Assembly (NCBI GenBank): GCA_013285465.1
Contig: CP053449.1
Location: 2,504,735-2,568,734 of the forward strand
From: Pseudomonadota bacterium
GTDB lineage: Bacteria; Pseudomonadota; Alphaproteobacteria; Micavibrionales; CSBR16-224
Direction: 5' to 3'
DNA: 64,000 nt
Shown: positions 43,358-43,998 of the stretch, piece by piece
Numbering within the stretch: position 1 is the stretch's first letter
How the letters are laid out: each line of letters starts with the position of its first letter
The notes under the pieces: model-generated
Told to the model about the DNA's origin: nothing
Database searches by the model: none
Seen by the model: only the letters and a program-made list of their open reading frames with translations
Program-made: the position numbers and the translations under genes

Positions 43358-43431
43358 GGCGCGGTGGCAGAGTGGTCATGCAGAGGACTGCAAATCCTCG
43401 TACGCCGGTTCGATTCCGGCCCGTGCCTCCA
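43358..43431 (+). tRNA. tRNA-Cys (anticodon GCA)
   Basis: A 74-nt tRNA with acceptor GGCGCGG pairing CCGTGCC, the discriminator T expected of Cys, and encoded CCA. The anticodon loop carries GCA. The T arm has the TTCGATT loop. A DpnI-like gene starts 41 bases downstream. Confidence 0.97.
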
Positions 43432-43471
43432 ACAAACAAAACACCTCTTAAATGTTTGGTACTTTTCCTAA

Positions 43472-43924
43472 ATGGCTACAGATAAACAGAAACTCGGACA
43501 ATTTGGAGAAAAACGTGTTGTCAGTAAATGTTTCTGCCCGAAGTGTAAAAACGCATCTACCTTAAAGCTACTACCAACCAATTTTAAATGTGCTGATATA
43601 ATTTGTGATTTTTGTGGATACTTGGCACAAGTTAAAACCAGCCAAGTTAATGATGTTTCTATACTACCTAAAAAGATTTTAGGAGCAGCGTGGAAACCCC
43701 AAAAAGAACGCATGACGGCAGGAATATATTTCCCCCTTTTTCTTGTGCTGGTAAATAAAACCAACCATAAAGACGCCGCGATTTACTACTTGTCCGCAGA
43801 CTTACAAAGCCCAGAAATTTTTGTTCCTAGAAAAAAACTCAGTGAACAGGCAAAAAGAGCCGGCTGGCAAGGCTTTTTATATGATACTGAAACCGTATCC
43901 GAAAGCTTCGTTCGATTATTTTGA
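43472..43924 (+). CDS. DpnI-like PD-(D/E)xK nuclease domain protein
   Basis: The 150 residues resemble the catalytic half of DpnI: two CxxC pairs, C22/C25 (CPKC) and C45/C48 (CDFC), with D42 in ADIICDFC, then Q53-V-K55 at the position of the E-L-K active-site pair, and the RAGWQG block near 129-134 corresponding to RAGWIG in DpnI. The winged-helix DNA-reading domain of DpnI is absent, and the catalytic Glu is Gln. Base composition is AT-rich against its neighbours, it directly follows tRNA-Cys, and it lacks an obvious ribosome site, which fits recent acquisition. Restriction activity is uncertain. Confidence 0.68.
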   Translation: MATDKQKLGQFGEKRVVSKCFCPKCKNASTLKLLPTNFKCADIICDFCGYLAQVKTSQVNDVSILPKKILGAAWKPQKERMTAGIYFPLFLVLVNKTNHKDAAIYYLSADLQSPEIFVPRKKLSEQAKRAGWQGFLYDTETVSESFVRLF

Positions 43925-43998
43925 CACCTAATATACTTTCTGTTTTTTCCCACTCATGCTAGCCTAAAGACCTACTTCAGCACTTTTAGGAAACGCCT

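Follow-up and report, generated by a model that had tools for sequence, protein, structure and literature searches.

The best described relative of the gene treated here is R.DpnI, whose catalytic domain comprises residues 1-182 and whose catalysis involves Asp53 (a bridging metal ligand), Glu64 and Lys66, according to passages of PMC4117772. In the same passages the G:C pairs are read with Arg135 and Asn48 (proximal G), Arg126 (distal G) and Ser17 (cytosine O2), Gln18 makes a minor-groove contact, and both methyl groups are held by Leu129, Arg135 and Trp138, backed by Gly140. The catalytic domain alone has been described as sequence- and methyl-specific. For the BisI family, passages of PMC11347163 name QVK and QIK as the metal-binding motifs of NhoI and Eco15I, show Ca2+ bound by Asp and the Gln of QVK, call Asn or Gln equally suited metal ligands, and report that Eco15I cut down to one domain stays active and has a similar sensitivity to modification; Mrr and MspJI are also PD-QxK nucleases (excerpt of PMC12707154). 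Here we describe an open reading frame (ORF) of 150 amino acids (aa) at 43472-43924 (+) of a 64,000-nucleotide stretch (hereafter the window) of alphaproteobacterial contig CP053449.1. Drawing on sequence, predicted fold, residue conservation, clade and genomic context for the protein itself, and on DpnI and the BisI enzymes for metal chemistry, Gm6ATC specificity and a role in defence, we read it, with a probability of about 0.72, as a self-sufficient one-domain restriction endonuclease dependent on N6-methyladenine (m6A), of solo type IV / IIM, that would cut Gm6ATC.

Family membership, fold and active site

The window protein matches Pfam family PF06044 (DpnI) with 62.8 bits (gathering cut-off 26.7, E 4.4e-17), a resemblance much too strong to be accidental. 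DpnI was found in the PDB by sequence with E 6.7e-6 and by the family profile with 1.4e-9, the profile alignment pairing Q53 with the catalytic glutamate of DpnI. The best PADLOC model was mREase_II, a methyl-directed restriction enzyme (E 1.4e-8). The Pfam models listed up to E 10 were DpnI and, weakly, a zinc ribbon, but not Mrr_cat; NCBIfam gave nothing above cut-off and PHROGs no family.

The fold was predicted by AlphaFold2 from a 14-sequence alignment (mean predicted local distance difference test 92.6), and its top Foldseek match is DpnI 4kyw (E 7.8e-10, template modelling (TM) score 0.83). By VIA-align the model superposes on the catalytic half of DpnI with Z 15.9, at 2.2 A over 144 residues and covering DpnI 13-157, the next-best structural family being BisI (NhoI and Eco15I, Z 10.7-10.8). 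In a viral fold library the top match was E5ESH8 (E 7.3e-10, TM 0.83, 234 aa) and the rest were weaker. The C-terminal winged helix is absent: the window protein ends 16 residues after the last methyl-pocket Gly, whereas this tail has 114-116 residues in the four full frames of the winged-helix type and 75 and 30 in the two partial frames. The window protein belongs to the DpnI catalytic family as a one-domain form whose site is of the Gln type, and its features are as follows, the residue equivalents being taken from the alignment.

43472 to 43924, plus strand: single-domain DpnI-like PD-(D/Q)xK endonuclease ORF, 150 aa, assigned by sequence, profile and predicted fold
43487 to 43489, plus strand: Gln6, equivalent of DpnI Gln18 (minor-groove contact)
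43535 to 43546, plus strand: first CxxC (C22, C25), presumed zinc ligands
43580 to 43582, plus strand: Asn37, equivalent of DpnI Asn48 (reads the proximal G)
43595 to 43597, plus strand: Asp42, equivalent of the catalytic DpnI Asp53 (bridging metal ligand)
43604 to 43615, plus strand: second CxxC (C45, C48)
43628 to 43636, plus strand: Q53-V54-K55, equivalent of DpnI Glu64-Leu65-Lys66, QVK as in NhoI
43829 to 43840, plus strand: Arg120 to Leu123, with the equivalents of DpnI Arg126 (distal G) and Leu129 (methyl pocket)
43856 to 43873, plus strand: R129-A-G-W132-Q-G134, with the equivalents of DpnI Arg135, Trp138 and Gly140 (methyl pocket)

Viral contigs, genome contigs, plasmids and sampled genomes were searched and yielded 19 more single-domain proteins, 142-167 aa long, so the window gene does not stand alone as a degenerate copy. 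Their carriers are Alpha- and Gammaproteobacteria (Acinetobacter, SAR86), Actinomarina, Kibdelosporangium, Marinimicrobia, Chloroflexi, an Azospirillum plasmid and three IMG/VR contigs, and the phyla represented are Pseudomonadota, Actinomycetota, Chloroflexota and Marinimicrobia. The 13 relatives in the alignment are 55-65% identical to the window protein. In the tree, 20 single-domain rows are split from six winged-helix-type rows by a 100/100 branch. These counts leave out a frameshifted Bifidobacterium copy (L022), two C-terminal pieces (L007 and L032), one sequence below cut-off (L009), a 260-aa frame in genome G893 (L063) and two entries on the same contigs as L002 and L024 (L025 and L064), and they include L028 and L031 as winged-helix type, although both frames look incomplete. 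A marine sub-clade (98/99) unites Actinomarina, SAR86 and Marinimicrobia; inside it the branching departs from the order of the species, which suggests transfer, although binning errors may play a part.

Counterparts of DpnI Asp53, Lys66, Asn48, Arg126, Leu129, Arg135, Trp138 and Gly140 are each present in 20/20 single-domain proteins, as are all four cysteines (C22, C25, C45 and C48), and that of Gln18 in 19/20 as well as in 6/6 winged-helix-type rows. The window protein itself has counterparts of Q18, N48, R126, L129, R135, W138 and G140, whereas S17 is replaced (Lys5). Three positions switch as a group between the two sets. The Glu64 position is Gln in 19/20 single-domain proteins and Arg in one (phage contig L024), the Leu65 position is Val in 20/20 versus Leu in 6/6 winged-helix-type rows, and the Ser17 position is Lys or Arg in 20/20 versus Ser, Ala or Thr in 6/6. 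With Lys66 kept, the single-domain motif is therefore QVK, and D42-x10-Q53-V-K55 of the window protein fits the D-x(n)-QxK motif of the Mrr/BisI type.

A preliminary description, made from the letters and translations, had recognised both CxxC pairs, D42, Q53-x-K55 and RAGWQG, all of which are present (the last two as Q53-V-K55 and R129-A-G-W-Q-G134), and had taken them for the catalytic half of DpnI without its winged helix and with Gln for Glu. Fold, family and conservation support that view, the superposition on DpnI being the opposite of a fold unlike PD-(D/E)xK. It had proposed either a small defence nuclease or an inactive decoy. Sequence family, predicted fold and conservation favour the nuclease, and the decoy is made less likely by a Gln that is retained (19/20) alongside Asp, Lys and the methyl pocket.

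Genomic slot, distribution and neighbourhoods

The gene is a single copy in a one-contig genome of 2.67 Mb and has a GC content of 0.384, compared with 0.514 for the whole window. Two close pairs of relatives gave ratios of nonsynonymous to synonymous substitution (dN/dS) of 0.011/0.086 and 0.011/0.334, well below 1, which denotes purifying selection and strong constraint. Since the frame is also kept by relatives across phyla, 43472-43924 is a real gene. It lies in a slot with these landmarks:

43358 to 43431, plus strand: tRNA-Cys (GCA) bordering the slot and outside the system, from a tRNA scan and locus comparison
43440 to 43935, no strand: variable slot with approximate ends, from locus comparison, holding an 83-aa lipoprotein-like gene in a same-genus relative

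The same-genus genome G001 shares the flanks, which, judged by their sequences, we take to be an AhpD-like gene, the tRNA-Cys and a glycerophosphodiesterase-like gene. The slot of G001 holds the unrelated 83-aa gene (L048:957-1205, minus strand), and nothing in the window's genome matches it. The slot is therefore variable and the DpnI-like gene looks like an arrival. The preliminary description had treated an unrelated gene in the slot of relatives as evidence against its reading; one is indeed found in this relative, but it speaks for a variable slot and leaves the gene as real as before. Its emphasis on tRNA-Cys holds for the window locus, where 40 bases separate the tRNA end at 43431 from the ATG, but not for the family, as only 1/17 other single-domain loci has a tRNA within 1 kb (tRNA-Thr in L011; L003, L006 and L008 were seen with 1.5 kb flanks only). 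A direct repeat of the tRNA end or an att-like repeat was sought around the window gene and none was found. Integration at the tRNA was rejected because there is no such repeat and the tRNA link is not conserved.

Carriers of the gene are few. In the window's order the single-domain form occurs in 2/142 genomes and a 260-aa form in 2; across the class any PF06044 match at E 0.001 was found in 5/385 genomes. In the phylum, 7/398 genomes match the single-domain profile, and in six of these seven (all but the window's own) the match lies in an open frame of 149-275 aa, which we interpret as winged-helix type or a piece of it. Genome G042, also from the window's order, encodes a winged-helix DpnI of full length with ExK (L004); the order therefore harbours both forms. 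A phage collection of 50,697 records had no match to the single-domain protein and a plasmid collection had one, Azospirillum NZ_CP007794.1. With the full-length DpnI of the same order as query, no relative was found among viral contigs, the plasmid matches were only partial or on 'plasmids' of chromosomal size, and one phage record matched partially.

The earlier suggestion of a missing partner gene was not borne out. When 114 of the 133 neighbour proteins of 19 loci were scanned with Pfam and PADLOC, no family, among the 25 of 85 listed, recurred in more than 3 of the 114. ORFs longer than 150 aa at the 19 loci, scanned for amino-methyltransferase motifs, gave two weak matches, and no recurrent methyltransferase partner emerged among the same listed families; one C5 methylase lies near the frameshifted Bifidobacterium copy. 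In that copy (Bifidobacterium saguini, L022:5001-5482) the methylase, a C5 cytosine methylase with a helix-turn-helix domain, is 3 kb away. SIS/GATase was rejected as a recurring partner, since its three members fit glmS. In L013, L014 and L019 (Actinomarina and SAR86-type genomes) a glmS-like gene lies upstream of the single-domain gene, either next to it or a few genes off, a proximity that hints at a shared insertion site.

Individual neighbourhoods differ, and in several of them the copy has defence or mobile genes close by. Abi_alpha is tail-to-tail with the single-domain gene in L002, TIR is near it in L011, and an integrase is 3 kb away in L020. In L023 and L024 the gene sits among terminase, portal or tape-measure genes, and in L013, L014 and L015 among housekeeping-type genes. 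An AspBHI-type restriction gene directed at 5-methylcytosine (5mC), with PF18062 and Mrr_cat, was seen at L039:8853-10058 (minus strand), about 0.75 kb from a single-domain DpnI gene.

Proposed activity and alternatives

In the proposed mechanism the monomer would fold as the DpnI catalytic domain, entering the minor groove with its N-terminal helix and the major groove with a loop. Arg120, Arg129 and Asn37 would read the two G:C pairs of GATC, while the two m6A methyl groups would share a single pocket made of Leu123, Arg129 and Trp132. A divalent metal would be held by Asp42 and Gln53, Lys55 would position the attacking water, and the cut would fall inside Gm6ATC. Dam-methylated DNA of phages, plasmids or other bacteria would be cut, and the host's own GATC should be unmethylated and safe because no Dam is detectable in the host; an enzyme that cuts Gm6ATC requires a host free of Dam. 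Dam above the curated cut-off was found in 0/18 genomes (17 with a single-domain gene, one of them frameshifted, and one with the winged-helix type), and 3/18 had weak D12-type matches. At L033:1274-2101, in an Acinetobacter HR7 genome that also has the nuclease, a D12-class adenine methyltransferase lies behind a DnaC-like gene and is below the Dam cut-off. The window has 240 GATC sites against 346 expected; GATC avoidance as a signal was rejected, four other palindromes being more depleted. The gene would move as orphan cargo, as its occurrence in a variable slot by a tRNA, in phage genomes and in defence neighbourhoods suggests.

A wider proposal, which we put forward tentatively and at a little under even odds, is that these proteins form a distinct clade of one-domain DpnI enzymes in which about 150 residues do what DpnI does with 254. 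The Gln-based metal site and the Lys or Arg in the minor-groove helix would accompany the lack of a winged helix. As a minimal reader and cutter of Gm6ATC, the clade would have passed from phylum to phylum, travelled on phages and reached streamlined marine bacteria.

Several points weigh against a Gm6ATC-cutting enzyme, and they bear on two of its alternatives. The absence of Dam agrees with the model without proving it, because in the phylum only 48/299 genomes exceed the cut-off, three of the 48 in the window's class. The domains of DpnI show crosstalk, a double mutant of the winged helix impairing DNA binding by the catalytic domain (passages of PMC4117772), so that cutting could be weakened or abolished where the winged helix is missing. 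The Glu64 position is Glu in 6/6 winged-helix-type rows and Gln in none, and a phage copy (L024:6001-6468, between a primase-like gene and the terminase small subunit) has Arg for the catalytic Gln with the rest intact and may be a phage version that is dead or retuned. The loss of the winged helix, the change from Glu and this Arg would all suit a catalytically dead m6A-DNA binder, which would mask or sense Gm6ATC without cutting. Asp42, Gln53 and Lys55 are nevertheless kept together across phyla (D and K 20/20, Q 19/20), which a pure binder would not need; in NhoI and Eco15I a Gln serves as metal ligand, and Mrr and MspJI use PD-QxK (excerpt of PMC12707154). As Gln is retained with Asp, Lys and the methyl pocket and binds metal in the BisI family, and as the two close pairs are under strong constraint, the site is, by these comparisons, probably not dead, and we regard the binder as very unlikely. 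Specificity may differ too, since all 20 single-domain proteins have Lys or Arg in place of Ser17, the residue with which DpnI reads cytosine. Together with the missing second specificity check of the winged helix, and with DpnI residues 77-78, a part of the readout, falling in a poorly aligning stretch, this would fit an active nuclease whose target differs from fully methylated Gm6ATC (it might relax the outer bases, accept hemimethylated sites, nick or depend on another modification). The major-groove base- and methyl-reading residues that do align are retained, and we hold such a target to be unlikely, though less so than a dead protein.

The gene could also be chiefly a weapon of phages or mobile elements, used for superinfection exclusion or against Dam-methylated rival DNA, with the window copy as a stranded remnant. 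The phage-type surroundings of L023 and L024, the integrase of L020 and the low GC and variable slot of the window locus point that way; the phage collection without a match, the copies among housekeeping genes and the lack of an att-like direct repeat at the window locus point the other. We consider this improbable to about the same degree as a different target. It may be compatible with the preferred reading of an m6A-dependent endonuclease, as it changes the beneficiary and not the chemistry.

Comparison with described enzymes

The DpnI catalytic domain occurs here alone, as a conserved and spreading gene with a Gln-type active site. If the proposed activity is right, a 150-residue m6A-dependent cutter would be a handy tool as well as a minimal defence gene. 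A published screen of more than 1,000 winged-helix fusions covered, by design, only winged-helix proteins (according to passages of PMC11037411). No report of a DpnI domain without the winged helix was found in titles and abstract starts of the open-access literature, REBASE and subscription papers lying outside that search.

With Mrr and MspJI-type PD-QxK nucleases (Pfam Mrr_cat) the window protein shares Gln in the (D/E) place, but it does not match Mrr_cat at the threshold given above, and a separate reader domain belongs to the Mrr/MspJI enzymes. The BisI family (NhoI and Eco15I; PDB 8q5n, 8rpx and 8q5o) is closer, having the QVK/QIK site and reading methylation with the catalytic domain itself, but it recognises 5mC at GCNGC, places two protomers on the DNA and is 13-14% identical by structure alignment. 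R.DpnI (PDB 4kyw and 4esj; PF06044, 'DpnI / Dam-replacing family', which includes Neisseria Drg) is closest. Like it, the window protein has the catalytic-domain fold, the four cysteines, the active-site Asp and Lys and all aligned major-groove base- and methyl-reading residues, and has no methyltransferase partner. Unlike it, the window protein lacks the C-terminal winged helix, has Gln for Glu64 and Lys/Arg for Ser17, is 23-25% identical to the DpnI chains by structure alignments and falls in a clade apart from the winged-helix-type rows. As two defining features of R.DpnI, the winged helix and ExK, are thus missing, it is filed as a variant clade of the DpnI family.
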